From contig NZ_JAHESC010000025.1 of NCBI RefSeq assembly GCF_018598185.1, positions 1 through 64,000 on the forward strand: 64,000 bases of DNA, in the 5' to 3' direction. Below the pieces are notes generated by a model. That model was not told the DNA's origin and did not search any database. It saw only the letters and a list, made by a program, of their open reading frames with translations. Source of the DNA: Dawidia soli (lineage in GTDB: Bacteria > Bacteroidota > Bacteroidia > Cytophagales > Cyclobacteriaceae). Below, piece after piece: positions 4,649 through 40,049 of the stretch (positions are counted from its first letter, which is position 1; each line of letters starts with the position of its first letter). A program made the position numbers and the translations under genes.

Positions 4649-4669
4649 GAATTCTTGTTATTAAGGTGA

Positions 4670-4864
4670 CTACTCTTTCCTGGACCGCTTTTTTAAAAGT
4701 TTATACCCGCCCAGTATTCCGCCCGACACCAGCAAATATTCAAGCCCGGTAATAGGAACTTTGTCCGGGTCTTCGCCAGGGTTTGTTGGCTGGCTGAGTA
4801 CGGCGGGGCTAAAGCCAACGAGCACAAAAACTATTACTGAGAGGATCTTTTTCACAAAATTCAT
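4670..4864 (-). CDS. 64-residue exosortase-type substrate (PID-CTERM-like sorting signal)
   Basis: A signal peptide (residues 1-24, cut after VLS) is followed by only about 12 residues (QPTNPGEDPDKV). Then comes a tripartite tail: the motif PITG, a hydrophobic stretch (LEYLLVSGGILGG) and a basic end (KLLKKRSRKE). This is the arrangement recognised by exosortases: short motif, membrane segment, positive cluster. The Bacteroidota version is usually 'PID', here 'PIT'. An XrtF-like exosortase lies in the same operon at 10698-11237, which supports the call. It starts 3 bases after the large T9SS gene and precedes the dehydratase. If the tail is removed, the released piece would be a peptide of about 12-15 residues. 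Confidence 0.72.
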   Translation of the reverse strand: MNFVKKILSVIVFVLVGFSPAVLSQPTNPGEDPDKVPITGLEYLLVSGGILGGYKLLKKRSRKE

Positions 4865-4867
4865 GAA

Positions 4868-7800
4868 TTATTTTTTAATCAAGCGGTAACTCTTCCTACC
4901 TGTCATTTTATTCACCATCATTAAATACACGCCGCTGCGAAGGCTGCTGACATCGACCGTATACGTGCCAAGGCCCGGTGCGACCGGCAGCTCTGAGACT
5001 ACCTGGCCCACGGCTGTCGTAATCTGAATGTTTTGTACATCCGCATCTACGACTTCCAATGTGAGCTGATCTCCCACCGGATTGGGGTAAGCCTTTACCA
5101 GTACGCCACCGTTTTCGTCGATTACCGATCCCGACAAAGTCTTTTCAACGGCAAACGAGGTGGTTAGCGCCAACGGCGAACAGCTACCCAATGCGCTAAT
5201 CGTCAACTCATTTGTACCATCCTGCAGCGCGCCTGCCTGGACGTCGAAAGCAATTTCGTGGCCGTTGCCCTGTATGGGACCTGCAATAAGTGTACCCGCA
5301 GCATTAAACAGAGTATAGGATACATCGGCCGACGTACCGGTTACATTTACTGTGTAGGTCGTTGCCGCGTCGTCAATAATTGCCGGGGCCGTCACATCTA
5401 TTCCGGCGAGGGCGTCGTCTATCACGGATATGCTAAAACGGTGCATGTCCCTGGATCCCTCCTTGCCATCGACGATGAATTGGTAGGCATTGCCTCGGAG
5501 CGCCGTCGTCTTTCCGAGATAGTGGTCGGTCAACAGAAACTGGTAACCGCTGATCACTTTGGTATTCAGGGTTATGGTGTAGCTGCCCTCGGCGACGTCC
5601 TTCATCTCCAGGGGGAACGAGTCGTTGCAGTGGAGACCGCTCACCGCATTGATCGCCATTGCGCGGTTACCGGGAGCCAGCGTGGAAAAGCTGAACGTCG
5701 GGTTATAAAGCTTAGGCGCATCGAGGCTGTCGAGACCGGGCAGTGCCTCTGCCACCAGCTTGACGTACGCGGCATCATACTGTGTCCCGTCCGACAAGGT
5801 CAGCGCGAATGAGGGGATTTCAACCGGCGGACGTTCGCGGAAAAATTCGGCTCCGGTTGTCACCTTTACCGCCTCTTGCAGACGCAGCACGGGATTAGCG
5901 CCAGTCGCTCGCACAAAAAAAGCCTGGCCCGGAGCAATCTGCCCATTGGCGATGTCATTGGTCACGCCGGGCTCGTAATAGCGCATCATACCCGTGGCGT
6001 TGTCGATGATCGAAATGACGATGGACATACGCGTACGTGTCCAGCCGCTGATATCCCAGTCGATTGTGGCGGGGTAAGGGTTGCCTACCAGGTTCCAGCC
6101 ATTAGCATCGGCATTGGCGGTAGCGGTGTAGGTTACCGGAAAGGTAATGACGCCCTGATTGATTGGGCCGGTAACATCCACGATTGTGGGATTAGTGCAC
6201 TCGCGTATGTATGCAGAATATCCGAGGCCCACCTGTATGGGGCTATTGGTCGTGTAAGTACCGGGGAGCGGATAACCCACGTACCCCGAGTTTACATCGC
6301 CCGTGGTGGCTTCATTGTAATAGAACAAGGATGTGGAACCTGTGCGGACCACTTCTCCGCAGATTGTCTGCTGAGGGCTGGGGTCCCTGAATCTGCCCGT
6401 GATGGGGAAATCGTCCTGCCACTGCGCGACCATGGCATTGCTCACCGGGCTGGAAAGATAGCGGTACATCCGTCCCTCCGGACTGATGTGACGCTCGACG
6501 GTCACATCGCCGGAAATTGTGTTGCCGTTCAGGAGCCGATAGATCGTGCCTTGTCCAGGGGCGCCGGCCGCGTCGGAGGTCGAACGCACTACCAAATGGC
6601 CATTGGAAGCCACGTTCTGGTTGATGGACGGGCTTACAAATTGCAGCAAGCCGACGAGGTTCAAGGTAGAAGTAAGCTGCACGCCGCCACCTGTTTTGGC
6701 AATGTTGATATTGCCGATTGGTACGCCACCTGCAGAGATCGTCTGCTCATCACCGCCACCCAGTATCACCGTGGTCGTGCCCTGCTCAAAGGTAGCGTCG
6801 GGCTGAAAAGTGACATTCCCGGTAAACGTTGTGTTGCGGGTGAACGTGAGAGTCTTACCCGCATTCAATTGGACATTGCTAAACGTAGGAAGGCTAGTAC
6901 CCTCCACCGTGGTGATTCCGTCGAAGATCACCGTGCCTGTGCCTGGCACAAACTGACCGCCATTCAGCTGCCAGCTGGGGCCTCTCATGGTGATCGTAAA
7001 CGCGCCGGGTTGCAGCGTGCCCCGTGTAACGGAGAACGTACCGTTGATGGTGACCGCCTTGTCCAGTTGAATAGTATTCTGGCTTTGCGCTGGTCTGATC
7101 GTCAAATCGCGCAAGGCGGTTTCGTCACCGGGAAGCTCAAGGCCGGTCTCGAACGGCACAAAAGGACCAGATGCGGGCGTCGATGTGTGATATTGTACAT
7201 TGTACGCTCCGCTCACAGCCGGTGCTACACCGGCCAGCGTCGCCGTATTTTCGCGGACGATGGCTGCGTCGTCGCGCATGGTCAGACCCGATGTGTTTGT
7301 AAAGACGCCATTGGTCAGGTTGAATATCGAATCTACCTGGAGTGTGCTGTTTAATGTCACGCCGGCATCGGCCCCGGTACGGTCAAGGGTAAGGATACCC
7401 ACTTGCGCAGCAGAAGGTGTGAATGGCAAAGTACCTGCCGAGCCACCTGTCGTACCGCCGATCGTCAGTCTTGACGCGGAAGTGCCCGCCAATCCGCCGT
7501 CCGTGCTGGCAACGGTACCATTCAGGGTCAGCAGGAAGTCGCTGATGTTCAGGCTTCCGCTGGTCAACGTGAGCGCTCCATTGATCGTAGTGTTTGACGC
7601 AAGTGTCACGCCATTTGAGTTGTCGATTACGGTTGTGACGTCACTGCTGGTGGGCTGCCCATTACCCATGTATTGCGGGCCTGCACCGCTATACACTATG
7701 CGAGAACCTGGCAGGTATATGCGGTACGCATTGTTGGTACGGATATTCCCGGCCGTGCTAACGTTCTGAACCGCTCCTTTCGGATCCAGAGAGCCGACGA

Positions 7801-10297: not shown

Positions 10298-10705
10298 TTA
10301 CATTGATCGACTGCGCTGGTAATAAAAAGCGGGGATCAGCAACAAAAGCAAGGTAGGATTCAGAATGAGCCGGTGCAGGTAGGAAATCAACGGGCCATTG
10401 TAGGACGGGAAATACAGTTTCAGGATAAAATATGGCATTAAAAACAAAGCCGTGCCGACCAGCTGTGTCCAGAGCGCAAAGATTACGTACTTGCGTTCGT
10501 AAAATAATGCATACAACAGCCCGATTGCCAGCAGGTCATTTAACAGGAAGCGCACCGTTCTGTTGATCAGGAATTTATAGACGGGTGCTGTCACCAAGTG
10601 CAAGGAGCCTGCCAGGTCCAGGCGCTGAAACAAAAACACCAGCACCAGGCCGGTCGCGCAGACGCCACCTACTAACCATCGACGGGTCAGGTCCTGCTCA
10701 GGCAT
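10298..10705 (-). CDS. Exosortase F system-associated membrane protein
   Basis: A 135-residue, very hydrophobic protein with about four membrane segments. Conserved-looking stretches include FLINRTVRFLLNDLLAIGLLYALFYERKY (start of that run near residue 45) and the end ISYLHRLILNPTLLLLLIPAFYYQ. Size, topology and position directly after the exosortase gene, with an 8-base overlap (10698-10705), match the small protein that accompanies XrtF in Bacteroidota. Its role is not known; it may assist substrate handling by the exosortase. Identification rests on memory of the family and on context. Confidence 0.75.
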   Translation of the reverse strand: MPEQDLTRRWLVGGVCATGLVLVFLFQRLDLAGSLHLVTAPVYKFLINRTVRFLLNDLLAIGLLYALFYERKYVIFALWTQLVGTALFLMPYFILKLYFPSYNGPLISYLHRLILNPTLLLLLIPAFYYQRSRSM

Positions 10706-11237
10706 GGGCGGTCTGCCGGGTAAATTTCCGGATCCATATCAACCACAGCCCGAAGATCACCGCATACAGAAATGCGGTAAAGAGATACTTGTGTACAAAG
10801 TACATGGCGTCGGGCAGAAAGCGCGACACAACAAAAAGCAGGCTGATGCGCAACAGGTTCATCACGTGAACTACCACGATTCCTATGGGTATGAACCATA
10901 GCATCGGTTTACGCCAGGGGCCGAACGCCAGGATAAAGGCCAGGTACATCAACATCGCATTGACACCATTGCAGCCCTCGTATACCGCCAGGACCGATCG
11001 CTCTTCGAACACCAGATTGGTGACCGGCTGGCTACCATGATCTTTTGCCCTGACCGCCCAGACTGCCCGCAGCACGGCGGCGGTCTGCACGGTGACGGTG
11101 TGTGTGATAGGATCCGGCTTCGGATGATACGCGGTAATATAAAAGCCGTATAGCATGTTCGTCAGCACATACAAGCCGACAAAGCGCAGCAGAAAGAAGA
11201 TGGTAGGACGGAATTCTGTAAACGAGAAGCTTTTCAT
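10698..11237 (-). CDS. xrtF: Exosortase, XrtF type
   Basis: A 179-residue polytopic membrane protein with the three invariant exosortase/archaeosortase residues in order. These are Cys89 in YEGCNGVNAMLMYL, Arg130 in VMNLLRISLLF, and His149 in MYFVHKYLF. Exosortases are membrane cysteine transpeptidase-like enzymes that recognise a C-terminal motif-TM-basic tail and cleave or transfer the protein; they are usually linked to extracellular polysaccharide loci. It overlaps the acetyltransferase gene by 4 bases (ATGA) and the associated-protein gene by 8. A candidate substrate is the 64-residue protein at 4670-4864 in the same operon. Confidence 0.88.
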   Translation of the reverse strand: MKSFSFTEFRPTIFFLLRFVGLYVLTNMLYGFYITAYHPKPDPITHTVTVQTAAVLRAVWAVRAKDHGSQPVTNLVFEERSVLAVYEGCNGVNAMLMYLAFILAFGPWRKPMLWFIPIGIVVVHVMNLLRISLLFVVSRFLPDAMYFVHKYLFTAFLYAVIFGLWLIWIRKFTRQTAHA

Positions 11238-20845: not shown

Positions 20846-21577
20846 TTATTGGGTAGACATTATCGCGCGCAACTCGGCATCCATCCTCACATCTTTGCCG
20901 GCATGCCGCGCGAGGCGTTTCTTAAATTCCTCATACTCCTTGTCGGGGTTGTGCAACCCCACGCTTATCATAAAATCGCGTGCTTGTTGCGCCTGCTGCA
21001 TGTCGTCGCGATAGCCGTCGCCATAAGCAGTCTTAAAGAACGTAAAGCCCGTGATGTACAATTCTGAAAAGTCCGACTCCAATAACGCGCACAGCGCCGA
21101 GTAACCGGTCGTGGGCCGGTATTGCCCCAGGGAACGGCCGATATCCTTGTAGAGCTTGCGCGACAGCACGTAGGTACGTTGTGGCATTAGGTATTTTTTA
21201 TAGAAGTTAAAGCTGTTGCGCAGCCCCGTCCATTCATAACGCGGATTGATCACGGCCTGAATACCCTGGCGGCTGTACATATCAAAATCCAGCTTGCCTC
21301 CGCCGCTGTGCATGTTTTCCAGAAAACAATGAAAAAGCACATCGGTGCGTTCGCCGATGTCGGCTGCATGTTTGCCGGCATCTACCGTCAGCGCCGACTT
21401 GTTTACGCGCACCACGATGTCGAACCCGTCGATGTAGGCGCCGTTGCCAGTCTTAAAAGCCGAGCTGGCCGGTCCGACGATGGCGATGCGCTTTCCGCGA
21501 AATCGATCCTGGGGGAATACCTTGATATGGGTAATCGCCAGCATCAGGCCCCTGACCACATTCAGTAGTTTTTTCAT
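20846..21577 (-). CDS. GT29-like sialyltransferase homologue
   Basis: A 243-residue protein that shows the animal/plant-type sialyl motifs. A motif L-like stretch is at residues 31-60: IAIVGPASSAF, then YIDGFDIVVRVNKS. A motif S-like stretch is at about 155-165 (PTTGYSALCALL) followed by YITGFTFF. A perfect HX4E (motif VS) is at His209-Glu214 in HNPDKE. GT29 enzymes move sialic acid or a related nonulosonate from the CMP-sugar to an acceptor. The operon encodes CMP-sugar synthesis (33 and 24.5 kb), which fits. There is no membrane anchor apart from a mildly hydrophobic start, so it should act in the cytosol. Most known bacterial sialyltransferases belong to other families. Confidence 0.8.
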   Translation of the reverse strand: MKKLLNVVRGLMLAITHIKVFPQDRFRGKRIAIVGPASSAFKTGNGAYIDGFDIVVRVNKSALTVDAGKHAADIGERTDVLFHCFLENMHSGGGKLDFDMYSRQGIQAVINPRYEWTGLRNSFNFYKKYLMPQRTYVLSRKLYKDIGRSLGQYRPTTGYSALCALLESDFSELYITGFTFFKTAYGDGYRDDMQQAQQARDFMISVGLHNPDKEYEEFKKRLARHAGKDVRMDAELRAIMSTQ

Positions 21578-21598: not shown

Positions 21599-22450
21599 TT
21601 AATATGGGTATTGTTTAGCAAAATGATCCAGAAAAACCGCCGACCCTTTTTTATTCAGATGGTCCTGGTCTACATACCACTGGGGGTTTGCCAACGGCGC
21701 TGTGAAGTCCTGCACGTGCAGGTTGTTTGCCGCCGCCAGCGAATCGATCACCTTTGTCAGGTATATGCTGGCCGGACGCAGCTGTATGAGCGAATCGTAG
21801 TACGGATGTACCGGGTACCGTACGGGAATGATCGTATATCCGTTGTTCCGCGCCAGATCGATCAGCTCCTGGTATTCGCGCAGCAATGTACGGCTCACGG
21901 CGGCGTCGGGGAACTGCGCTGCGGCACGCGAGCGGGCATGGGGTCGGGTAAATTTGTCGCGCTCGGGATCGTCCGCTTTCTTCCCGAACATCAGGAAGAA
22001 GCGTTTGGTGTCAAAGGCTGTATTCTGATCGAAGAACAACGGCAGCCAGTACACCAGGTGCTTGTTCAGGTACGGATTGTTAATGATGCGGTTGGCAGCA
22101 TTGTTCTGCTTTGTTTCGCGGTATGCCGACAACAGGTGAGGCTCGAAAGGAAGGACCACGGCCTTTTCGCCCTTCCATTGATTTCGTGCCGCCGCGTACT
22201 CGAACTTCATCCGCATGTCGCTTACATTATCCGATCCGGTGGCAAAATTATATCGCTTGGGATCTGTATTGGCGGCCCATGACCGGTTGGAATGAGAGTC
22301 ACCCAGGATCAGGAGCCGAAACTCTTCGGGACATTCCAGGTACTTTTCTTCATATGACCGTAAATTACCGCCGATCACAAAAATATATACCAGGTTGACC
22401 AGTAGCAGGATACCCAGGCAAAGCAAGAGGTGACGCAGAAATTTGTTCAT
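21599..22450 (-). CDS. Membrane-anchored SGNH-like protein, partner of MBOAT (module 1)
   Basis: A 283-residue protein with an N-terminal membrane anchor (LLLCLGILLLVNLVYIFVI, about residues 8-27) and a periplasmic domain. The SGNH nucleophile motif is GDSHS at 50-54 (Ser52), and the C-terminal DxxH motif is Asp261-Gln-Asp-His264 in YVDQDHLNKKG. Such proteins work with an MBOAT acyltransferase, as AlgJ/AlgX or DltD do, to place acetyl groups on exported sugar chains. It follows the MBOAT gene by 3 bases. Confidence 0.82.
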   Translation of the reverse strand: MNKFLRHLLLCLGILLLVNLVYIFVIGGNLRSYEEKYLECPEEFRLLILGDSHSNRSWAANTDPKRYNFATGSDNVSDMRMKFEYAAARNQWKGEKAVVLPFEPHLLSAYRETKQNNAANRIINNPYLNKHLVYWLPLFFDQNTAFDTKRFFLMFGKKADDPERDKFTRPHARSRAAAQFPDAAVSRTLLREYQELIDLARNNGYTIIPVRYPVHPYYDSLIQLRPASIYLTKVIDSLAAANNLHVQDFTAPLANPQWYVDQDHLNKKGSAVFLDHFAKQYPY

Positions 22451-22453
22451 GTC

Positions 22454-23875
22454 CTAAAACTGAAAATAAATGAATTCGATATTGTTTTCGCTGCCTTTAC
22501 CAAAGAGTAGCAGCACGATCGTCATCACCAGCACATACGGTATGGCCGGAACGAGCGCATGTGGTTTCCGTTCGTCGTGCCGCGACAGCCAGTCGAGGAC
22601 CAGTAACAGGGCAACCAGCAGCAATGAATCGGCATACTTCGGCATGGTCAGCAAATGGTGCCCAATGCCCTGTATATAGTGGAACGCATCGTGTACGGTA
22701 TCGGCCCGGAAGAAGATCCAGCCTATTGTTACCAGCACGAAGGTGAGCAACATCTGGAATGTCTCGCGCACGGAAGGCAGCCAGCGGCTGGCAGCAACGA
22801 TCTCGCCCGTGTGCTTGCGGTTGGTGTTGACCATAAACAAGGGCACGTACAACAACGCGTGGTAACCGCCCCAAAGGATATAGGTCCACTTGGCACCGTG
22901 CCAGAACCCGCTTAGCAAAAAGATTATAAAGATGTTGCGCAATGCCCGGCCCTTGCCTCCTGCCGAGCCGCCGAGCGGGATGTATACATAGTCACGGAAC
23001 CACGACGATAGCGAGATGTGCCAACGGCGCCAGAACTCGGCAATATCCCGCGAGAAATACGGAAACTTAAAGTTTGTGAGCAATTCAAAGCCGAGCAGCT
23101 TGGCCGTGCCCAGGGCAATGTCGGTATAGCCGCTGAAGTCGCCATAGATCTGGAAGGCAAAAAACACGGCGCCCAGCACCAGCGTAGACCCCGACTCATC
23201 GGCGTAGCTGCTGAAGATGGAATTAACCACCACGGCCAAATTATCAGCGATCACCACCTTCTTAAAAAGGCCCCATACGATCAGGCGCAAGCCGTCCATG
23301 CCCTGCTCATAACGAAATACCCGGGGCTGTGCCACCTGCGGCAACAAGTGATTGGCCCGCTCGATCGGCCCCGCTACCAGTAACGGGAAAAAGCAAACAA
23401 AAACCGCATAGTCAATGAAATTCTTAATTGGCGTAACCTTGCCGTTGTAGATGTCCAGCACGTATGACATGCCGTGGAAGGTATAAAACGAGATGCCTAC
23501 AGGCAACAGGATGTTGAGCACATAGGGATGCGTTTCCAGACCGAACCCTGCCATGAAATCCTGGAAGGCTTCCGCAAAAAAGTTATAGTATTTAAAAAAG
23601 GCCAGAATGCCCAGGTTGTTGACAATGCTCAGCCACAGGTAGATCTTCTTGCGCGCCTGCGTGGCCGATTGGTGAATGATCAGACCGAAGAAATAGTCGA
23701 TCAGTGTAGACAGCATCAGCAAAAAGACAAATCGCCAATCCCACCAGCCGTAGAACAGATAGCTGGCCAGGAGAATGAGCACGTTTTGCGCACGCATGCT
23801 GCGGCCCACGACGAACCAATACAAAAAGAAGAAGATGACAAAGAAAAGCAGGAAGACGACAGAATTGAAAAGCAT
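22454..23875 (-). CDS. MBOAT family O-acyltransferase (AlgI-like), module 1
   Basis: A 473-residue polytopic protein of the PatA/AlgI/DltB type. Conserved stretches are MLFNSVVFLLFF, FYGWWDWRFVFLLMLSTLIDY (44 on), FFKYYNFF, LPVGISFYTFHGMSY, AGPIERANHLLPQ, IYGDFSGYTDIALG and FWRRWHISLSSWFRDYVYIP. The catalytic histidine is His326 in LSGFWHGAKW. The family passes an acyl group from acyl-CoA across the membrane to a periplasmic acceptor. A second MBOAT gene of the same length (38628-40049) is clearly paralogous. Confidence 0.94.
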   Translation of the reverse strand: MLFNSVVFLLFFVIFFFLYWFVVGRSMRAQNVLILLASYLFYGWWDWRFVFLLMLSTLIDYFFGLIIHQSATQARKKIYLWLSIVNNLGILAFFKYYNFFAEAFQDFMAGFGLETHPYVLNILLPVGISFYTFHGMSYVLDIYNGKVTPIKNFIDYAVFVCFFPLLVAGPIERANHLLPQVAQPRVFRYEQGMDGLRLIVWGLFKKVVIADNLAVVVNSIFSSYADESGSTLVLGAVFFAFQIYGDFSGYTDIALGTAKLLGFELLTNFKFPYFSRDIAEFWRRWHISLSSWFRDYVYIPLGGSAGGKGRALRNIFIIFLLSGFWHGAKWTYILWGGYHALLYVPLFMVNTNRKHTGEIVAASRWLPSVRETFQMLLTFVLVTIGWIFFRADTVHDAFHYIQGIGHHLLTMPKYADSLLLVALLLVLDWLSRHDERKPHALVPAIPYVLVMTIVLLLFGKGSENNIEFIYFQF

Positions 23876-23890: not shown

Positions 23891-24523
23891 TTAAGGGATG
23901 GTTGAAAATGACCGGATATAGTTATACCCGTTATGATCAAACTCAGCGTTGTTGTAACCGATAAAGTCAATACCATTGGCCGTGGCCGCCTGGTAGTCGT
24001 TGATCGAGTCGCCGATCAGCACGGTTCGTTTCGGATCATACCCGTTGGCGGCCAATACCTCTCTCACCAGTTGTGTCTTGGGGGTCGGCGACCCGTGGAT
24101 CGAGACAAAGTACTGCGCGAGATCCAGGCTGAGGCAGATCATATTCAGCTCCACACCGTCAGATCCCGACACGATGTGCATCGGAACGTCGCGGTAGCGG
24201 CGGCGTACAAAATCCAGCGAGTCGTTGATCAGCAGTGTCTTGTTGATCAGCAGACGTTTCATGACCACCGAGAAGTCTGTCGCCATGCCTTGTACCTGTT
24301 CTTCTGTTACGGGTTCTTTTCGAATCTCCTCAAAGAAGTACCGGAACTTGACATATCGCGACAATCCGCCGTTGACGCGGTGGTATGCCATCAGTTCCGC
24401 TACTTGCTCCTGCGGGTAGGACGCCAGCACATGGCGGAAGCCTTCGTCGCGCACAGGCATAGAATCCATCAGCACGCCGTCGAAGTCCCACAGCAGGCAA
24501 CTATAGTTTGATAAGTTTATCAT
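23891..24523 (-). CDS. HAD family hydrolase, probable sugar-phosphate phosphatase
   Basis: A 210-residue HAD phosphatase. Motif I is WDFDGVLMDS (nucleophile Asp13, acid Asp15), motif II is HIVSGSDG, the motif III lysine is in SPTPKTQLV, and motif IV is LIGDSINDYQAA. The helical cap lies between about residues 25 and 95, as in phosphoglycolate/beta-phosphoglucomutase-like enzymes. Its start overlaps the end of the cytidylyltransferase gene by 23 bases. It could remove the phosphate of an ulosonic acid phosphate before CMP activation, as KdsC does in Kdo synthesis. That role is inferred from position. Confidence 0.85.
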   Translation of the reverse strand: MINLSNYSCLLWDFDGVLMDSMPVRDEGFRHVLASYPQEQVAELMAYHRVNGGLSRYVKFRYFFEEIRKEPVTEEQVQGMATDFSVVMKRLLINKTLLINDSLDFVRRRYRDVPMHIVSGSDGVELNMICLSLDLAQYFVSIHGSPTPKTQLVREVLAANGYDPKRTVLIGDSINDYQAATANGIDFIGYNNAEFDHNGYNYIRSFSTIP

Positions 24524-25199
24524 AGATTGCTTCGGCTATCAGAAAATCGTCTTCCCAATCAATGTCAAAGGACTTGATCTTGTCCTGCTCGTACAGGAAG
24601 GGCCTTCCTCCGACCCGGTTACGGTCGTTGCGGTATGTCTCCCGCGACGCGATGAACATGGCGTGGTTCACTTCGTATAGCACAGGCAGGTCTTGCGTCC
24701 GGGGCCAGCGGTTTGCGCCGGCATCGTAATTGAAGACATTGGCCTGTGCGTCGAGTAGAAAGTTTTGCAGGGGCATGACGCTGATCAGCGAATCATAGCC
24801 CTGCCCGAGCTTGTCGAAATAGGCGCCGATGCCTTTGTCATACTCCGCGGCCGTCACAAAGGGCGTCGTGGTGTGCCCCCAGATAATATGCGATTCGGAA
24901 ATGATCTCCGGCACGTAGGCGATCAGGTCGGTTAGTACCGTGGTGTCGAGACACAGATGATCGGGTCTGATAATAACCTGCACCTTTTCACCCGTGGGGT
25001 CTATCCGACGGGCCACGTCCATCGATTCTTCATCGTTTGTCGACAGCACGATGCGCTGCAGGGTCCTGCACTCCATTAGCTGCTGCAGCTTCACCGCCAG
25101 AATGCCTCCCTCCACACCCGCAAACGGGCGCGTATTTTTCGATTTGACGCGCTGGCTGCCTTTGCGCGTGGGCAGGAAAAAGCAAATATCTTTCTTCAT
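24501..25199 (-). CDS. Acylneuraminate/CMP-sugar cytidylyltransferase-like protein (second copy)
   Basis: The product is 232 residues from ATG 25199 (a TTG two codons earlier opens the frame). The nucleotide loop PTRKGSQRVKSKNTRPF corresponds to the ARxGSKGIPxKN motif of CMP-sialate synthetases, and RIVLSTNDEESMDVA and HTTTPFV match later conserved regions. It is only distantly similar to the other cytidylyltransferase in the operon (32834-33526), so it probably activates a different acidic sugar. It sits between the aldolase and HAD genes and overlaps the latter by 23 bases. A KdsB-like activity is possible. Confidence 0.82.
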   Translation of the reverse strand: MKKDICFFLPTRKGSQRVKSKNTRPFAGVEGGILAVKLQQLMECRTLQRIVLSTNDEESMDVARRIDPTGEKVQVIIRPDHLCLDTTVLTDLIAYVPEIISESHIIWGHTTTPFVTAAEYDKGIGAYFDKLGQGYDSLISVMPLQNFLLDAQANVFNYDAGANRWPRTQDLPVLYEVNHAMFIASRETYRNDRNRVGGRPFLYEQDKIKSFDIDWEDDFLIAEAIYDKLIKL

Positions 25200-25208
25200 C
25201 GGCAATGA

Positions 25209-26753
25209 TTAAACTAAATAAGCGTACACCGAAACCACCGGCAGGTTGGCGTAGTTGGTTGGCGTCAGCGAACGCAGGGTACACTTGCCGTATGCCGTGA
25301 ACGTGTTAAACAGAAACTCGTTTTCGTCCGAAAGCCCTTTCTCCAATTGCGTAATCGTTTTCTCCTGGTAGCCGTCGTAGCCTACAAGCAGCACTTCCTG
25401 AACGCCCAGGGCGAGCGCTGTTTGCAGTGCCAGCGCCGTATGCGAGTCGCGTAGCCTGTCGGTAAAATCCACACTGGCCAGTTCGAAGCTCTTTCCCTGA
25501 ATAGCCTCCGGAATATAGGTCCCCATCTTTCGCGGGAATGGAGGCAGTACACACTGACCGTTGAAATGGCTCAACTCTCCCCGGAAAATACTTTCCAGGC
25601 GGTGGCCTTCGTTACCCACCAGGCAGAAGTATTGATCGGCCCGGATACTCTTGTAGCTGCCCGCATTTTTCGAGCTTGCATGGATCAGACAAATCTCGTC
25701 ACTGTTCCGTTGCATGTACTCCATCACTGCTGCCTGGTGTTGGAGAGCATTCGGGCCGCCGCCAATGATGACGGCCTTGGCATAGCGCTTCACAGGCTGA
25801 AAAATCGGCAGCTTCTGGTTGTCTTCAATTTTCTCCTTTTGGTTGTGCAGGGCCCGGATGATGCTGTTGAATGAGTAGAAGCGCTTGGTCACCCATTCCA
25901 TAACATCTTTCTGCGGCAACGAGTTAGCACCCGATACCATATAGGGCAAGTTCGTGCCCCAGCCATAGTGCTCTTGCAACTTCTCGAACGCATCAACCAC
26001 ATTGCTGAGCGCATTGAAGTCTACCTTCACGTCTGCACGGGAATTAAGCGCCGTAAGCAACAGCTCGGTCTTCAGGTTACCGGCACCGCGCCCCATCCCC
26101 GTCACTGTGGCATCGATCATCGCCGCTCCGTGCTCCACCGCCGTCAGTGAATTGATCAGCGCCAGCTCCAGGTTGTTGTGTCCGTGAAAACCGATTTTGC
26201 AGGCGGTGCGTTGCTTCACCAGGTCTATCGTCTCGACAACGTCTTTCGGGTACACACCACCGTATGAATCGACCATATAGAAATAGTCTGCCACGGCGTC
26301 TACATATTTCAGCTCGTCCAGGAAAGCGCTGTATTGCTTCCATTTGGACATATACATAACGTTGAAGCCTACTTCAAATCCCATTTTTTTAATGGCCTCG
26401 GCCAGCACCAATGCCCGCGACAACTGCTCGGGATCAAGTGCAATACGCACCATTGAGATTATTCCCACGCACGGCGTCAACAGCGCAGGCACATGCTCCG
26501 GTCGTACATCCTTTTCATTCAGGATCACCACCAGCTTCTTGTTCGAAAGGGTGTGCGCCTGCTCCAGCACATATTGCGGACAGTAAAAATATTCGCCCAG
26601 ATATTCACGCATGGGGTTGCTGCGGTAACCGATCTCCAGGTAGTCTACCGGCAGATCATTAAAGGATTTGAAATACTTTTCTACAACTTCCTTGCTGAAA
26701 TCCCATTCGGTATAATATCCGCCATCCCGGAGTGTGCAATCTAGTATCTTCAT
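25209..26753 (-). CDS. HMGL-like (DRE-TIM) aldolase fused to a C-terminal domain of unknown function
   Basis: A 514-residue protein. Residues 1 to about 280 form a pyruvate-carboxyltransferase/HMG-CoA-lyase-type TIM barrel. It has LDCTLRDGGYY (4-14, with the metal/catalytic Asp5, Arg9 and Asp10), the metal histidines His190 and His192 in GFHGHNNLEL, and TGMGRGAGNL (218-227). These metal enzymes make or break C-C bonds next to pyruvate-like enolates. From about residue 325 a separate domain starts (KAVIIGGGPNALQHQAAVM) that looks like a Rossmann-type fold with a second motif VLLVGYDGYQEK; I cannot name it. Its neighbours (cytidylyltransferase, HAD phosphatase) suggest synthesis of a CMP-activated ulosonic-type acid. 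Confidence 0.85.
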   Translation of the reverse strand: MKILDCTLRDGGYYTEWDFSKEVVEKYFKSFNDLPVDYLEIGYRSNPMREYLGEYFYCPQYVLEQAHTLSNKKLVVILNEKDVRPEHVPALLTPCVGIISMVRIALDPEQLSRALVLAEAIKKMGFEVGFNVMYMSKWKQYSAFLDELKYVDAVADYFYMVDSYGGVYPKDVVETIDLVKQRTACKIGFHGHNNLELALINSLTAVEHGAAMIDATVTGMGRGAGNLKTELLLTALNSRADVKVDFNALSNVVDAFEKLQEHYGWGTNLPYMVSGANSLPQKDVMEWVTKRFYSFNSIIRALHNQKEKIEDNQKLPIFQPVKRYAKAVIIGGGPNALQHQAAVMEYMQRNSDEICLIHASSKNAGSYKSIRADQYFCLVGNEGHRLESIFRGELSHFNGQCVLPPFPRKMGTYIPEAIQGKSFELASVDFTDRLRDSHTALALQTALALGVQEVLLVGYDGYQEKTITQLEKGLSDENEFLFNTFTAYGKCTLRSLTPTNYANLPVVSVYAYLV

Positions 26754-31706: not shown

Positions 31707-32834
31707 TTAAAATAATTGAGAGAATATCGATTGATAGAAGGCGCGTGTTTCTCGCTTCCTTTGTCCTAAAACATCATGCCCTGATGGCGCCGGTTCGTGC
31801 AATTTTCGCTGCACGGTCGTCACCAGGTCCTCTGCAAACGGTTGATCGACCCGCACCACCGCCTTGTAATACCCCAGGCTGTCATACATGTTTTGTACAC
31901 GGTCCAATGCCGCCAGGCCTATGCTCTTCACGCCCAGTGCGATACTGCAAACATTGGCATGGAACCGCATGCCTGCCACCATCGCGCTGTTTTTATAGCC
32001 AGAGTAAATCTGGTTACACCCGAAGTCGCCCTGAGCAAAGGGCGCCACAGCCACCCGTGTTCGAATGTGAAAGTCATTTACATACTTCAGGATCGCATCG
32101 ATAGCCTTGTAGTCACTGTAAATATGGGGGGCAAAGGCAATGTCAAGCTCGGTATCGGCAATAAGACGATTCACAGCAGTACCCATCTCGCGCACGTAGG
32201 CACCTTCGTCGATCTTGCCGAGATTTCGGTTTTCCATGTGCACCTGATCGGCAGTTGTGTTGATCAGGATATACGGTTTCTCGGATGCGCGGTAAAGACT
32301 GCCGTCGTTTTCGTAAAAGAAGCCGTGGTCTAATATTTCAGGGATGGCATCGTAATAGTGCGTGCCGATAAATTCCTTCAACGTATCTTTCGAACCATCA
32401 TTACGGACGGCGACATAGGCGTTAGGCTTAGCCAGGAGCTGATCCAGGAAGCGTCTGAATTTGTCGATGTTTCCTTCGGGCACTACCTTATGCGGCATAC
32501 AGCCTACGCTCGTGATAATGAGTGGCACCCGGATCAGATCGAGCACTTCCGGCGAAATGTTCAGCGTAGTGCCTGTTACACTATTCTCCACCCAGAAATC
32601 CAGAAAACCGCCGCCGCCTATAACAAACGCGTCGTAGGTGTTGACGTGGGCGGCAAAGTCCGCATCAAACCGGCACTTGTCGGGCAGCGAGTAGTTGTTG
32701 TAAAACCGGCGTATCTCGAGTCTGTCGATCTGCCAGGCAGCCCCTCCGAGAGAAGCCAGTATATTTCGGAATCCCAAGTGGCTGGCGTTGTCGCCAATAT
32801 TGCCATAATGGGAGGCTAAATGAAGTATTTTCAT
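31707..32834 (-). CDS. Polysaccharide pyruvyl transferase family protein
   Basis: A 375-residue protein with the family signatures. These are HYGNIGDNASHLGF at the N-terminus, VIGGGGFLDFW around residue 75, VPLIITSVGCMPHK, and the C-terminal YKNSAMVAGMRFHANVCSIALGV containing the conserved His. Members transfer pyruvate from PEP to a sugar of the repeat unit as a ketal, or act as related ligases. Its start shares one base with the stop of the upstream cytidylyltransferase, showing tight coupling to the nonulosonate genes. Confidence 0.87.
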   Translation of the reverse strand: MKILHLASHYGNIGDNASHLGFRNILASLGGAAWQIDRLEIRRFYNNYSLPDKCRFDADFAAHVNTYDAFVIGGGGFLDFWVENSVTGTTLNISPEVLDLIRVPLIITSVGCMPHKVVPEGNIDKFRRFLDQLLAKPNAYVAVRNDGSKDTLKEFIGTHYYDAIPEILDHGFFYENDGSLYRASEKPYILINTTADQVHMENRNLGKIDEGAYVREMGTAVNRLIADTELDIAFAPHIYSDYKAIDAILKYVNDFHIRTRVAVAPFAQGDFGCNQIYSGYKNSAMVAGMRFHANVCSIALGVKSIGLAALDRVQNMYDSLGYYKAVVRVDQPFAEDLVTTVQRKLHEPAPSGHDVLGQRKRETRAFYQSIFSQLF

Positions 32835-33526
32835 CAGTACAAATTATTATCCGCCAGGAAGCGGGCATATAGCAAATCGGCCGGCTCGTCGATATCGATA
32901 TCGTTGAAGCCGGTTAGTTCAAACCCGAGCACTTCGGGAGTCTTATACGAGCGTACCTCGCGGATATAGTCCACTGTCGATATATAAATGGCACCATTGT
33001 ATTCGTAAGCAGGTTTGGCATCCTGCCGGCGATGGCTGTTGTCGCCGCTCACCACCGGCACCATCGTATTATCGTCGTTTTTATAAAACAACAACGTGGG
33101 ACTTTTACGCGTTTTCGAAACCGACACCACCATGCGGGCCTGTTGCTCCAGCGTATACTCGATCATGCGGTCGATATGGGCCGCATGGCGAAAGGGCGAC
33201 GTCGGTTGCAACAACACCAGGTAGTCATAATGTTCCTCGAGCTGATCCAGGGCGTGCATGATCACATCCATACTCGAACTACCGTCTTGCGCCAGCACGG
33301 CGGGCCGGACAAACGGCACATCGCAGCCGCGTTGACGCGCTATCGCCATGATGGCCTCGTCGTCACTCGATAAGATCAGCCGGTCAAGGTACCGGCTGCC
33401 AAGTCCCGCTTCAATGGTCCATGCCAGCAAGGGTTTTCCCCCAAGATCGGCAATGTTCTTTCCCGGTATTCCCTTCGATCCCCCGCGCGCGGTAATCAAG
33501 CCCAGAAATTTCTTCTCTCTATACAC
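32834..33526 (-). CDS. neuA: CMP-nonulosonate (acylneuraminate) cytidylyltransferase
   Basis: The product is 230 residues from a GTG start at 33526; no ATG lies near. The CTP-binding loop is ITARGGSKGIPGKN at about residues 11-24, and LQPTSPFRHAAHIDRM and YNGAIYISTVDYI are further family signatures. It activates a sialic, legionaminic or similar nonulosonic acid with CTP. It follows neuB and neuC, and one base is shared with the next gene. Whether it is a NeuA, LegF or PseF cannot be decided from sequence alone. Confidence 0.9.
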   Translation of the reverse strand: MYREKKFLGLITARGGSKGIPGKNIADLGGKPLLAWTIEAGLGSRYLDRLILSSDDEAIMAIARQRGCDVPFVRPAVLAQDGSSSMDVIMHALDQLEEHYDYLVLLQPTSPFRHAAHIDRMIEYTLEQQARMVVSVSKTRKSPTLLFYKNDDNTMVPVVSGDNSHRRQDAKPAYEYNGAIYISTVDYIREVRSYKTPEVLGFELTGFNDIDIDEPADLLYARFLADNNLY

Positions 33527-33537
33527 ACTTGTTACGG

Positions 33538-34665
33538 TTATAGGTCGCGGAATTTCTTTTGCTTCGATGTCTGCCAGAAATCTTCTGACTCGATCACCTT
33601 CCGGAATTTTTCGGCGCTGTTACCATCACCATAGTGCCCACAGGGCGGGAACCGTTTCTTCTCGAACGCCCGGGCAATCGTATCCAGAATCGCGGCCTTG
33701 TCAAAGTCTACGTTAAAAATGGACTCGTATTGCAGACGATTGTTCTGCCGGGTGCCGATATTGACAGTAGGTACTCCGTAAACGGGCGCCTCATGAATAC
33801 CGGCGCTCGAGTTGCCTATGATGAAGTCAGTATGTCGAAGCAACGTCAGGAAATATTCGAATCGCAGCGACGGAAAGATCTTGATGCGCGGCTGATTCTT
33901 GAGACGCTCATACGCACGAAAGATCTCGGCAGATCCCAGGTCGTTATTGGGATAGATCAGAATATAATTCTGCTCGCTCGCCAGCACAGCATCGGCAAAA
34001 ATGGTGGCATTCTCGTACTGCTTGTCGATCTCTGTTGTGACCGGGTGTAACATCGCGATCGCATAACTGTCGAACGATATATCATACCGTTTTTTTGCTT
34101 CCGGCAACGATGGTAACGTGTCTGACAGCATGATATCGACGTCGGGCGAGCCGATGCGAAAGATACTCCCGCCGTTCTCCCCCAGCTGCTGCAGGCGTTT
34201 TTCGGCAACCGTGCTGGCCACGAAATGCATGTGCGAGAGCTTGGACGTGGCGTGGCGAAGCAGATCGTCAATCGTGCCCGAAACCTCTCCACCCTCGACG
34301 TGTGCTACCAGCGTATTGCGAAGGGCGCCGACAATGGCGCCCGCCAGAGCCTCTATGCGGTCGCCATGGATCACGATCAGGTCCATGTGATATTCGTGCA
34401 AAAACCGTGTAAGCCCCGTGATGGTGTTGGCCAGTACGATTTCCATCGACTCGCCTTCCATCTGGTTTACGTACATGAACAGGTTATCGAAACCGGCACG
34501 CTTGATCTCCATGATGGTATTGCCATATTTTGACAGCATATGCATGCCCGTTCCGAAGATCATATAATCGTAATCCGGGTGATCCTGCACGGCCTTGATC
34601 AACGGCTTGAGTTTCCCGAAGTCGGCACGCGTGCCGGTAATAAACAGGATTCTTTTTTTAATCAT
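33538..34665 (-). CDS. neuC: UDP-N-acetyl sugar 2-epimerase, hydrolysing (NeuC/LegG)
   Basis: The product is 375 residues from ATG 34665 (a GTG one codon earlier is in frame). It has the WecB/NeuC fold signatures: ILFITGTRADFGKLKPLI, DLIVIHGDRIEALAGA, LVAHVEGGEVSGTIDDLLRH (start near residue 120) and FIIGNSSAGIHEAPVYGVPT. In this subfamily UDP is released, giving ManNAc or, for LegG, 2,4-diacetamido-6-deoxymannose. Since the operon also carries PglF/E/D-like enzymes, the LegG reaction is plausible. It lies 6 bases after neuB. Confidence 0.93.
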   Translation of the reverse strand: MIKKRILFITGTRADFGKLKPLIKAVQDHPDYDYMIFGTGMHMLSKYGNTIMEIKRAGFDNLFMYVNQMEGESMEIVLANTITGLTRFLHEYHMDLIVIHGDRIEALAGAIVGALRNTLVAHVEGGEVSGTIDDLLRHATSKLSHMHFVASTVAEKRLQQLGENGGSIFRIGSPDVDIMLSDTLPSLPEAKKRYDISFDSYAIAMLHPVTTEIDKQYENATIFADAVLASEQNYILIYPNNDLGSAEIFRAYERLKNQPRIKIFPSLRFEYFLTLLRHTDFIIGNSSAGIHEAPVYGVPTVNIGTRQNNRLQYESIFNVDFDKAAILDTIARAFEKKRFPPCGHYGDGNSAEKFRKVIESEDFWQTSKQKKFRDL

Positions 34666-34671
34666 CACAAT

Positions 34672-35712
34672 TTAATCCAGGTCACTCCACTTCAGGTGCA
34701 CGTCGTTGGCGACGTCGTTCTTGACACGTTTCCCTATCAGGGACTCATAGTGCTCTGCCAGGATTTCACCCGTGCCCGGACGTTTCACCCAAATGTTTTC
34801 TTTCGTCAGAATGTCGCCCTTCTTGAGTTCGCTGATCGACACGACAGAAGCATAGGCAAAGTCAATCGTCGGCTGCTCTTCCTTCACGAAAGATTTTTCG
34901 CCGCCGCGCTCCTGCTTCAGGATCTTCGAACCCTCGATAAGCTCGGCCATAGCCTTCGGGTCCATCGAGCAAACAATGTCCGGGCCTGGACGGTCCATGC
35001 GGTCCGTGAAGTGACGCTCCAGAACGGACGCGCCGAGCGCCACGGCGCCGAGACATGCCAGGTTGTTTACCGTGTGGTCGGAAAGCCCTACCACCGCATC
35101 GGGAAACTCCTTCGCCAGCTGGTCCATCGCCCCCAGACGTACCAGGTGCGGCGGCGTAGGATAAATGTTCGTGCAATGCAATAACGCAAATGGCACCTTG
35201 TGTTTGCGGAAAATTGCAACGGCCTTGCGGATGCTGTCGATGCCGTTCATACCGGTGCTCAGGATGATAGGCTTTCCAAATTGTGCGATATGGTCCAGCA
35301 GCGGGTAGTTGTTGCACTCGCCCGAACCGATTTTATAGGCCGGCACGTCAAATTTCCGCAAGCGTTCGGCCGCCGCGCGCGAAAAAGGCGTGCTGATGAA
35401 GATCATTCCCTTTGACTGCACGTATTCCATTAGCTTGCGCTCGTCTTCTTCGTTCAGCGCGCAGCGTTTCATGATCTCGTAAATGGAGACGTCGGCGTTG
35501 CCCGGGATTACTTTCTTTGCGTCGGCCGACATTTCATCTTCAACGATGTGAGTCTGGTGTTTAATGATCTCGGCGCCCGCGCGATGGGCCGCATCGACCA
35601 TTTCGAACGCGGTCTGCAGCGACCCTTCGTGATTGATACCTATTTCTGCAATAACCACAGGGTCATAATCATACCCGATTTTCCGGCCCCGGATTTCAAA
35701 GAAAGGATGCAT
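34672..35712 (-). CDS. neuB: N-acetylneuraminate/legionaminate synthase
   Basis: A 346-residue NeuB-family enzyme that condenses PEP with a mannosamine-type sugar. The TIM barrel has [20 protein letters not shown] near the N-terminus, [43 protein letters not shown] and the metal/active-site region [11 protein letters not shown]-terminal antifreeze-like SAF domain begins near residue 285 ([20 protein letters not shown]), as in true NeuB. It is the first gene of the neuB-neuC-neuA trio. Confidence 0.95.
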
Positions 35713-37539: not shown

Positions 37540-38628
37540 TCACTTCTTTCTTATCAATTCCACCGGGCTAGCGGGTGCATCCAGCAACCCAAACCGGCTT
37601 TTATCTACGTATTTCGCGAGTGTATGTTCGCCACGCCCGCACAATGTGCGTATCAGGCGCAGATAAGCCACCTCCGACCCATGAAAACCATCGACCGCCT
37701 CGTGATCCGTGGCGTCTAGTTCCTTGAGAGACGAAAAATTGTGTACCCGCAAACGATGGCGTTGCATGGCGGAATCCAACTTCAGTAAGTAATCATACTT
37801 GCCAGATGTCACCATCCGTTGGTATATCTGATCCGGATATGGTGGAAAAAACATCACCAACGCAATACCATTCTTCTCACAATACATTACAAATCTCTGC
37901 AATACATTGATCGCTTCCGGGTTCACCTGGTAACACCATTCAAATTTGTTAATTCCGCGTTTAATTCGTTTCTCAACATCGACAAACGAAACCGTATCGC
38001 CACGAAATACCTTTTCAACGGTCTTTCCATATCTATAACTTCCGTCATAACGAAACCCGTTGCCGTTCATGATGGCATTCAACCCTATATGCTCGGACGT
38101 ATGCCACAATTTTGCAAGATCTATTTTACCGTCGTATAGATCAGTATAGACCTTTTTCAACGAGTTGGTGAAAAGCTGCGTCGCATGACGCGTGCGATTG
38201 TAACGACACGGATCACGCATATCGTCCCAATTGGCGTTGAAGAAGTTCTGGTCAAGCGATAACAAAATAAACGCCGGACGATAGTTGGCACGCTTGAATT
38301 CCTCACTCAGGCAGTTTAGGTCCCCGATATCGGCAATGACCCCTCCGCCGTTGAAAAATTTTACGTCTTGCTGAAAGAAAAAGTGTCGCACCTGCATGAT
38401 GCGAGATGTACCGAGCGCCAACACCTCGGGCTTCCGGTACAAAATCTGTTGCAGTTTGTAATCGCGCGCCTGGTCACTGTACGCAAGGCCGAGAATTTCG
38501 CCAGAAGCTATGTTCCTTTCTGAAAAATCATCCAGTTCACCTGAAATTTCCAGTACGGCATACGGCACCAGCAAAAACAGCGCGATTGGCAGCGCATACA
38601 GCAACGTCTTGAAAATGAACGATTTCAT
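37540..38628 (-). CDS. Membrane-anchored SGNH-like protein, partner of MBOAT (module 2)
   Basis: A 362-residue protein: N-terminal anchor (FKTLLYALPIALFLLVPYAVL), then a periplasmic domain. The nucleophile motif is LALGTSRIMQVR (Ser75; Thr replaces the Asp of GDS), and the C-terminal DxxH is Asp313-Gly-Phe-His316 in DGFHGSE. It is not obviously similar to the module 1 partner outside these motifs. It shares one base with the MBOAT gene, and part of it is unusually AT-rich (46 G/C in the 120 bases 37861-37980), which hints at separate origin. Confidence 0.75.
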   Translation of the reverse strand: MKSFIFKTLLYALPIALFLLVPYAVLEISGELDDFSERNIASGEILGLAYSDQARDYKLQQILYRKPEVLALGTSRIMQVRHFFFQQDVKFFNGGGVIADIGDLNCLSEEFKRANYRPAFILLSLDQNFFNANWDDMRDPCRYNRTRHATQLFTNSLKKVYTDLYDGKIDLAKLWHTSEHIGLNAIMNGNGFRYDGSYRYGKTVEKVFRGDTVSFVDVEKRIKRGINKFEWCYQVNPEAINVLQRFVMYCEKNGIALVMFFPPYPDQIYQRMVTSGKYDYLLKLDSAMQRHRLRVHNFSSLKELDATDHEAVDGFHGSEVAYLRLIRTLCGRGEHTLAKYVDKSRFGLLDAPASPVELIRKK

Positions 38629-40049
38629 TAAAATTGAAAATAGATAAACTCCTCACTACCAAAAGCCCCAAAGAAAATAATCAGCAGCACCAGGCTATAG
38701 TACAGTGCAAACCGCGTCACCGCGTTGGTTCGTTGCAGGAATTGGGGCAATCCGTTTCGGAAGAGCCATTCCAGCACCACGAAAATGCCCATTATACCAA
38801 CCAACCGCATATCGAGCTTCGTTACATGCTGCCCCCAAAACGAGTGCGTGAAAATTCCCTGGATGTACCCTATGGCCTGCGTCATACTTTCCGATCGGAA
38901 GAATATCCAGGCAAAGCATGTCAGTGCAAACGTCGTCATTACCTGGAACAACTCACGCGGCGACGGCAGCAACCGTCCGGCGGCAATCGTATCGGTATTG
39001 CGGCGATTATTGCCCGTCAGTAACAAGGGCAGAAAATACAAGCCATTGAGCGCTCCCCACACAATAAATGTCCAGTTTGCCCCATGCCAGAAGCCGCTTA
39101 TCAAAAATACGATCATCGTGTTCCTCACCGCTTTCATTCGACTAACCTTACTGCCGCCCAGCGGAATGTAAATGTAGTCGCGAAACCAGGTCGTAAGTGA
39201 AATGTGCCATCTACGCCAGAACTCGGCGATATCGCGGGCGAAGTAGGGAGTCCGGAAATTGACCAGCAATTCGATACCGAACAATTTGGCGGTGCCGATG
39301 GCGATATCCGAATACCCCGAAAAGTCACCGTAGATCTGGAACGCAAAAAAGACCGTTCCTATAATGAGTTCCGAGCCTGTGGCCACTTCATAGTGATTAA
39401 AGACCTGGTTGACCACCAGCGCACAGTTGTCGGCAATCACTACTTTCTTGAAAAGGCCCCACAGGATGAGGCGCAGGCCCTCTACCGATTGTGTATAATT
39501 AAATGACCGGTCGCGTGTGATCTGCGGCAGCAAGTGCGTTGCCCGCTCAATGGGCCCAGCCACGAGCAACGGAAAGAAGCTGACGAACAATGAATAGTCC
39601 ACAAAACTTTTGATCGGCGTAGCCTGTCCACGATAAATATCGATGACGTACGACATGCCGTGAAAAGTATAGAAGGAGATGCCTACCGGCAACAAGACTT
39701 CCAATAGAACGGGGTTCATGTGGAGGCCAAAGGATTCGAGCAGAATGCGTGCAGAGTCGGAAAAGAAATTGAAGTATTTGAAGAAGAACAGAACGGCCAG
39801 GTTGTTAAAAATACTGAGCCACAAAAACAGTTTTTTACGGTTCTTCGAATTATAGATCCACAGCCCAAAACTATAGTCGATCAGCGTGGACAGCATCAGC
39901 AGGAACAGGAAACGCCAGTCCCACCAAGCGTAAAAAACATAACTGACAATCCAAAGCAAGTTATTCTGCAGCCGTCGCTCGCGTAATACCCAATATAGGG
40001 TGTACACCACCATTAGGAAGACCGCAAATTCAAGTGAGTTAAACAGCAT
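38628..40049 (-). CDS. MBOAT family O-acyltransferase (AlgI-like), module 2
   Basis: A 473-residue polytopic protein, paralogous to the one at 22454-23875 and of identical length. It has MLFNSLEFAVFL, FYAWWDWRFLFLLMLSTLIDY, FFKYFNFF, LPVGISFYTFHGMSYVIDIY, AGPIERATHLLPQ, IYGDFSGYSDIAIG and FWRRWHISLTTWFRDYIYIP. The catalytic histidine is His322 in ISGFWHGANW. Together with the SGNH protein it should acylate the glycan in the periplasm. Confidence 0.94.
   Translation of the reverse strand: MLFNSLEFAVFLMVVYTLYWVLRERRLQNNLLWIVSYVFYAWWDWRFLFLLMLSTLIDYSFGLWIYNSKNRKKLFLWLSIFNNLAVLFFFKYFNFFSDSARILLESFGLHMNPVLLEVLLPVGISFYTFHGMSYVIDIYRGQATPIKSFVDYSLFVSFFPLLVAGPIERATHLLPQITRDRSFNYTQSVEGLRLILWGLFKKVVIADNCALVVNQVFNHYEVATGSELIIGTVFFAFQIYGDFSGYSDIAIGTAKLFGIELLVNFRTPYFARDIAEFWRRWHISLTTWFRDYIYIPLGGSKVSRMKAVRNTMIVFLISGFWHGANWTFIVWGALNGLYFLPLLLTGNNRRNTDTIAAGRLLPSPRELFQVMTTFALTCFAWIFFRSESMTQAIGYIQGIFTHSFWGQHVTKLDMRLVGIMGIFVVLEWLFRNGLPQFLQRTNAVTRFALYYSLVLLIIFFGAFGSEEFIYFQF

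Follow-up and report, generated by a model that had tools for sequence, protein, structure and literature searches.

A recurrent aldolase, cytidylyltransferase and phosphatase cassette predicted to make CMP-activated ulosonic acids without a PEP-dependent synthase

The cassette and its two-domain aldolase in Dawidia soli

The window analysed here, a 64,000-nucleotide stretch of the Dawidia soli genome (contig NZ_JAHESC010000025.1, positions 1 to 64,000 of the forward strand; assembly GCF_018598185.1), harbours a head-to-tail run of three minus-strand genes (23891-26753) that encode an aldolase (hereafter ALD), a cytidylyltransferase and a HAD-type phosphatase. On balance, we consider it probable that this cassette makes a cytidine monophosphate (CMP)-activated 2-keto-3-deoxy (ulosonic) sugar acid for a surface polysaccharide, and that it does so independently of phosphoenolpyruvate (PEP). 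The three genes are:

25209-26753, minus strand: ALD, 514 residues, an HMGL/DRE-TIM aldolase with a second domain
24501-25205, minus strand: cytidylyltransferase (CTP_transf_3, distantly PseF-like; predicted CMP-sugar-acid synthetase; PF02348, E 5.6e-11)
23891-24523, minus strand: predicted HAD-IA phosphatase (PF13419, E 2.8e-13)

ALD and the cytidylyltransferase gene are separated by 3 nucleotides, while the latter overlaps the HAD gene by 23 nucleotides; its start is listed at a TTG codon, and an ATG two codons in would place that end of the gene at 25199. These coordinates, along with Pfam matches over the curated cut-offs, agree with the original prediction, made from the bare sequence, that genes for an aldolase, a CMP-sugar synthetase and a HAD protein adjoin or overlap here. 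The cytidylyltransferase matches CTP_transf_3 (PF02348) with 43.1 bits (cut-off 22.6) and is nearest to the PseF model TIGR03584, yet far under its cut-off (60.9 against 205.7 bits); of 12 chosen motif sites, T56 is conserved in 28 of 35 relatives and each of the other 11 in 31-35. The HAD protein matches HAD_2 with 50.8 bits (cut-off 23.8), and its motifs I-IV are intact: each of D13, D15, S119, K149, D172 and D176 is present in 49-50 of 50 relatives.

ALD consists of an HMGL/DRE-TIM barrel resembling pyruvate aldolases (residues ~1-312) followed by a domain resembling Maf and MptE proteins (residues ~317-514). The barrel matches PF00682 (HMGL-like) with 90.7 bits (cut-off 29), and residues 1-312 match the Protein Data Bank (PDB) entry 3dxi with an E-value of 8.9e-128. 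A model of the full protein (mean predicted local distance difference test score, pLDDT, 93) likewise retrieved 3dxi as the top Foldseek match (template modelling (TM) score 0.95 on the target, 58% identical), with DmpG-type aldolases next. This closest solved relative is the N-terminal domain, and only that domain, of BVU_2661 from Bacteroides vulgatus. Of the NCBIfam and PDB entries whose activity has been assigned, pyruvate aldolases match ALD best, and acyl-CoA condensing synthases rank behind them. Four residues, D10, H190, H192 and R9, are kept in all 62 loci of the collection described below and lie opposite positions 18, 200, 202 and 17 of 1nvm, respectively; the first three correspond to the Asp, His and His that bind the metal in DmpG. 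ALD thus shares its fold, metal-ligand positions and TLRDG motif with the class II pyruvate aldolases DmpG and BphI. Unlike them, it scores below the NCBIfam cut-offs for 4-hydroxy-2-oxovalerate aldolase (95.4 against 286 for TIGR03217 and 109.6 against 229 for PRK08195), has a tyrosine in place of H21 and carries an extra domain; and whereas the partner of DmpG is an aldehyde dehydrogenase (according to PDB titles), the neighbours of ALD are a cytidylyltransferase and a HAD protein. Aldolases of the HpcH/HpaI/GarL kind are also divalent-metal pyruvate aldolases, as ALD is predicted to be, but belong to a different family (PF03328).

Past the barrel, a Pfam search gave no family over its cut-off (PF01973 appeared with an E-value of 0.043, under the cut-off). 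The model of this second domain (pLDDT 95) matched the Maf flagellin glycosyltransferase 5mu5 best in Foldseek (E 9.7e-7, TM score 0.60 on the query), the only match below 0.001, followed by SteA and a Methanocaldococcus HPPK (E 2-3e-3). Maf and MptE-like proteins resemble it in fold, but unlike them it is fused to an aldolase, and it may act as a transferase. A passage in PMC11339370 reports that one Maf enzyme transfers both N-acetylneuraminic acid (Neu5Ac) and 3-deoxy-D-manno-octulosonic acid (Kdo).

Recurrence, partner exchange and viral fusions

Loci were gathered by the aldolase alone, without regard to neighbours, and comprise 52 full-length loci of 55 from a contig scan, nine regions from genomes of the phylum and one Leisingera plasmid (one of three such plasmids with a full-length ALD match was counted). 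Among the matches listed, 9 of 395 phylum genomes, that of the window included, have a full-length ALD relative. Two loci of the 62 (L036 and L048) are contigs of one metagenome-assembled genome (MAG) record set. A cytidylyltransferase lies within three genes of ALD in 62 of 62 loci: 61 were found by script, and in L087 the KdsB gene, lost by the filter for overlapping open reading frames (ORFs), was counted from annotation. By comparison, 7 of 195 control genes from the same loci have an unrelated cytidylyltransferase within three genes; this control covers the three downstream genes only and disregards both the cytidylyltransferases of the cassettes themselves and any gene up to four positions away from ALD. 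Chance adjacency is ruled out by this difference. In one of the 62 loci, L073, the cytidylyltransferase stands upstream of ALD. A HAD gene is found in 50 of the 62 loci, with weak matches in two more. The cassette extends to the cyanobacterium Calothrix (ALD 39% identical, order ALD-HAD-cytidylyltransferase) and the alphaproteobacterium Leisingera (ALD ~27% identical, order ALD-KdsB-HAD). The original prediction had singled out two findings that would count against it, namely a trio that does not recur elsewhere and an HMGL domain devoid of metal-ligand residues; instead, the cytidylyltransferase and HAD counts speak for recurrence, and the ligand positions are kept throughout. Features beyond that prediction are the second domain of ALD, the downstream GT29-like gene, the KdsB-type partners and the fusions.

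The partner of ALD is not always the same cytidylyltransferase. According to profiles built in this analysis, 34 partners are PseF-like, 22 belong to the KdsB family (23 with L087) and 5 to NEUA2; the KdsB-type partners tested pass the NF009905 cut-off of 255 (L040, 284.8; L087, 259.5). When the three labels are mapped onto the best tree (63 ALD proteins, L036 omitted), they require 13 parsimony changes, a number as low as which was reached in 0 of 200 shuffles, and well-supported branches, taken group by group, force at least 5, 5 and 2 changes. Within one genus, the three close ALDs of genomes G112 and G123 stand beside three different partner types. What is conserved is the activity and not one particular gene.

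The two enzymes are frequently joined in one ORF among 69 viral-contig loci from IMG/VR. Our script scored an aldolase-first fusion in 40 loci (22 of 45 after dereplication at 90%), a cytidylyltransferase within 1.5 kb of the aldolase in 12, and neither in 17. Four of these 17 turned out to be fusions in the reverse order, with a cytidylyltransferase of the window's CMP type (191-198 bits) in front, bringing the totals to 44 fused, 12 near and 13 with no cytidylyltransferase fused or near. The fusions lie at:

L103:5965-7659, L109:5992-7716 and 38 further viral-contig loci: aldolase-first fusions
L138:5311-6948, L142:5317-6939, L143:5317-6939 and L145:5317-6942: reverse-order fusions, with an MptE-like gene directly behind

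Of the aldolase-first fusions, 39 of 40 are of the KdsB type, while L129 is of the window's CMP type; in L128 the contig end truncates the fusion. Out of the 44, the fusions searched against Pfam were P0001 (from L103), P0002, L128, L129 and the four in reverse order, and both domains exceed the Pfam cut-offs in all four of the latter. Among cultured phage records, 5 and 9 distant matches were found and no fusion spanning 80% of the query; in PHROGs, neither the aldolase, the cytidylyltransferase nor the fusion P0001 had a match.

MptE-like genes accompany the viral fusions: among the 40 aldolase-first loci, 25 have one somewhere in the retrieved sequence, and one directly follows each of the four reverse-order fusions. 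In a single hhalign comparison, the profile of the second ALD domain matched the MptE-like protein beside a viral fusion with a probability of 90 (E 1.5e-6). Because these genes accompany the fusions and ALD itself bears such a domain, aldolase, cytidylyltransferase and Maf/MptE-like domains recur in several arrangements.

Clustering of the genes that neighbour the cassette (L036 and L048 omitted) returned mainly glycosyltransferases, nucleoside diphosphate (NDP)-sugar short-chain dehydrogenases/reductases (SDRs), export genes, the NeuB set and the cassette itself; judged by eye, no conserved neighbour family names the aldehyde, and the identity of the sugar could not be read from them. Two loci, L013 and L086, have short ALD relatives (~350 residues) that lack the second domain, with NeuB adjoining in the former and near in the latter. 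One MAG (L078) is labelled Streptomyces griseus although its cassette aldolase is 59% identical to that of the window, probably owing to a wrong label or bin.

The surrounding operon and competing explanations

The operon in the window is of the surface polysaccharide type, with chain-length, GT2, GT4, MBOAT, ATP-binding cassette (ABC) and pyruvyltransferase genes. The following genes bear on the cassette:

22454-23875, minus strand: MBOAT acyltransferase, adjoins HAD (PF03062)
21599-22450, minus strand: protein between the MBOAT and GT29-like genes, without a Pfam family, SGNH-like by eye
20846-21577, minus strand: GT29-like (sialyltransferase family) glycosyltransferase (PF00777, 31.2 bits, cut-off 23)
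34672-35712, minus strand: NeuB, the PEP-dependent synthase of a separate nonulosonate set (PF03102, E 1e-71)
33538-34668, minus strand: NeuC-type UDP-GlcNAc 2-epimerase (TIGR03568, 395.8 bits, cut-off 235.9)
32834-33526, minus strand: NeuA/PseF-like cytidylyltransferase of the NeuBC set (PF02348, E 5.7e-26; PseF 142.4 bits, under the cut-off of 205.7)

The GT29-like gene, third after HAD, encodes a candidate user of the CMP-sugar acid; in 9 of the 62 loci a GT29 homologue lies within six genes downstream of ALD, in 8 of them directly after HAD. The position of MBOAT next to HAD raises the possibility that the product is acylated, and this order is common to Parachryseolinea silvisoli (L033), where a homologue of the SGNH-like protein likewise keeps its place. 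Two MBOAT genes lie in the operon, each with a neighbour that is SGNH-like by eye (pairs at 21599-23875 and 37540-40049), and the first such pair stands between the cassette and the GT29-like gene. A membrane protein at 10698-11237 is exosortase-like by eye.

As the original prediction had noted, the operon already holds a NeuBCA set: NeuB, NeuC and a PseF-like NeuA lie in the same gene run as the cassette. It is conceivable, though unlikely, that the cassette's cytidylyltransferase activates a nonulosonic acid made by NeuB and that the role of ALD is to produce or take off a side group, either a hydroxy-oxo acid or an aldehyde, rather than to build the backbone. The proximity of NeuB in the window favours this explanation, as does the presence of a NeuB match of at least 100 bits in 29 of 50 further cassette genomes (50 of the 52 full-length contig-scan loci). 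On the other hand, 21 of the 50 have no NeuB match that strong, and genomes G123, G112, G198 and G054 have no NeuB match. All 29 NeuB genomes also carry at least three CTP_transf_3 matches, so that NeuB need not share the enzyme of the cassette, and the viral fusions link an aldolase straight to a cytidylyltransferase, in some cases of the window's own subfamily. The 21 other genomes have exactly two CTP_transf_3 matches in 16 cases, three in 3 and one in 2. Such counts are what one expects if KdsA, NeuB and ALD each have a cytidylyltransferase of their own, the matches not all having been traced to their neighbours.

We think it quite unlikely that the cassette makes Kdo itself by another route, from arabinose 5-phosphate and pyruvate, and serves as a second source of CMP-Kdo. 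Such a role would account for the KdsB-family partners in 22 cassettes (23 with L087) and for G123, which has a KdsB-family cassette and no KdsA match. Yet KdsA (390.5 bits) and KdsB (225.9 bits) are encoded elsewhere in the window genome, in addition to two strong NeuB genes, and the cytidylyltransferase of its cassette resembles PseF and is not a KdsB; KdsA exceeds its cut-off in 45 of the 50 cassette genomes; and neither in G123 nor in G005 does the cassette KdsB reach the kdsB equivalog cut-off.

Genomes with few or no PEP-dependent synthases bear on both explanations. Searches for KdsA, NeuB and HpcH gave no match in G123 (98% complete, ~290 contigs), where the cassette gene is the sole match to CTP_transf_3. 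In G112, which is a single contig, KdsA and NeuB are likewise without a match; both CTP_transf_3 matches of this genome fall within its two ALD cassettes, and these contain HpcH as well. Neither KdsA nor NeuB was matched in G054, but this genome carries CTP_transf_3 matches away from its cassette. In G434, one of the two genomes with a lone CTP_transf_3 match, no KdsA exceeds the cut-off, and that match (contig 318-950) fits the KdsB of cassette L073. By these searches, a Kdo or NeuB route as sole supplier of the acid is untenable for G112 and G123; that neither NeuB nor KdsA supplies the acid is indicated by the lack of matches in G112, G123 and G054 and, for the window genome, which has both synthases, by analogy only. 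Absences are weaker in the 50 genomes because their completeness is not given. The proposal that the aldolase takes the place of the synthase, as first put forward in the original prediction, is supported by these genomes, the chemistry itself being inferred.

An HpcH/HpaI-type or other aldolase might be the real synthase, with ALD otherwise employed, for instance to supply or cleave the aldehyde; we regard this as very unlikely. HpcH directly follows ALD in 7 of the 62 loci (the one tested, in L051, is nearest to GarL/HpaI, under their cut-offs), and it occurs in an HpcH-KdsB pair on its own in L064 and side by side with a CTP_transf_3 gene off the cassette in G054. But HpcH does not adjoin ALD in 55 of the 62 loci, and no HpcH/HpaI match was found in the window genome or G123 (other aldolase families were not searched), which rules out HpcH as the general synthase. 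The stand-alone HpcH genes, beside a KdsB-like or CTP_transf_3 gene, lie at L064:14908-16418 and on contig 6 of G054 (~4227-5588), in each case away from that genome's ALD cassette.

Finally, some phosphonate tailoring pathways combine the same three superfamilies, DRE-TIM synthase, cytidylyltransferase and HAD enzyme, but a pathway of this type is highly improbable here and we dismissed it: a Pfam search of 20 proteins from the window operon showed no PEP mutase, the partners of ALD include KdsB-subfamily enzymes over their cut-off, and the best activity-assigned matches of ALD are, as described above, pyruvate aldolases rather than condensing synthases.

The proposed route and its reach

In the route that we favour, from an aldolase to a CMP-ulosonate, ALD would act as a metal-dependent aldolase of the DmpG/HMGL type, adding the enolate of pyruvate, formed on the metal, to an aldose phosphate to yield an ulosonic acid phosphate. 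The HAD protein would then strip off the phosphate and the cytidylyltransferase would use cytidine triphosphate (CTP) to form the CMP-sugar acid, which the GT29-like protein, and possibly the second, Maf-like domain of ALD as well, would transfer onward. Removal of the phosphate and activation with CMP would pull the aldol reaction forward. We infer the aldol direction, the pyruvate donor, the phosphorylated acceptor, the order in which HAD precedes the cytidylyltransferase, and the product; a phosphorylated aldehyde is proposed as acceptor because HAD is present, and the product in the window genome is probably neither Kdo nor that of NeuB, since the genome has its own KdsA/KdsB and NeuB/NeuA. 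Passages in PMC3962088 and PMC8560999 describe additions of pyruvate to aldehydes by class II pyruvate aldolases of the BphI kind, with BphI itself favouring cleavage.

Several observations weigh against this route. A tyrosine (Y13) stands opposite DmpG H21, which we take to be the catalytic base of that enzyme, in 62 of 62 ALD proteins, and among the ALD family members found none has a tested activity, 3dxi being annotated as a 'putative aldolase'. HAD is missing or unlike in 12 of the 62 loci, with no HAD seen in Dysgonomonas, several gut-type Bacteroidales loci, L056 and L069. In L069 and L076 it is replaced by a KDG (2-keto-3-deoxygluconate)-kinase-like gene, which misfits a simple phosphatase step; this gene was seen in 2 of the 62 loci without a search of all loci for it, and hints at C6 acids. 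Cassette variants therefore exist. These PfkB genes directly follow ALD and the cytidylyltransferase:

L076:10225-11262: KDG-kinase-like PfkB gene
L069:10289-11317: KDG-kinase-like PfkB gene

The HpcH genes directly after ALD in seven loci, encoding a second pyruvate aldolase, count in the same direction, and the loci are not independent, as most belong to one phylum, the Bacteroidota. Of four genus-mates of G112 that lack ALD, two have no CTP_transf_3 match and one has a match under the cut-off, but the fourth (G446, 89% complete) has a CTP_transf_3 gene over it, so that the comparison of presence and absence within the genus is only partly supportive. Lastly, 13 of the 69 viral loci have no cytidylyltransferase fused or near, and at least one of these (L152) has a thiamine-diphosphate enzyme instead; aldolases of the wider family therefore also serve other pathways. 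In L152 (5036-8803), the one such locus on which Pfam was run, a short aldolase relative follows an SDR and precedes the thiamine-diphosphate enzyme, perhaps a branched-sugar pathway; L153, L154, L156, L159, L162-L164 and L166 resemble it in the position of SDR and aldolase.

To our knowledge, CMP-activated ulosonic acids are built by PEP-dependent synthases of the NeuB/KdsA kind. The cassette follows the same logic as the KdsA-KdsC-KdsB (Kdo) and NeuB/NeuA routes, in which a synthase, in some cases a phosphatase, and a CMP-synthetase act together, and its cytidylyltransferases are related to theirs. Unlike these routes, it has no PEP-dependent synthase and would form the carbon-carbon bond by a metal aldolase, presumably from free pyruvate. 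In the open-access literature, of which titles and the beginnings of abstracts were covered and subscription papers were outside the scope, no description of the cassette or the fusion was found. We regard the cassette as a probable form of CMP-ulosonate biosynthesis with a new carbon-carbon bond-forming step.

A broader proposal can be made more tentatively, and we hold it with somewhat less than even confidence: a general PEP-independent branch, in which a metal-dependent pyruvate aldolase, often sharing a protein or operon with a CMP-transferase and a Maf-like domain, would make short or otherwise unrecorded ulosonic acids (e.g. C5-C7 acids from glycolaldehyde, glyceraldehyde or tetrose phosphates). 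The CMP-enzyme would be swapped as the acid varies, and viruses would carry compact fusions to decorate glycans.

If the recurrent aldolase route is real, it would constitute a second way to CMP-activated ulosonic acids and would supply a function for a so far unassigned aldolase family, of which a structure (3dxi) is available. It would also predict new acidic sugars on Bacteroidota and in glycan pathways encoded by viruses.

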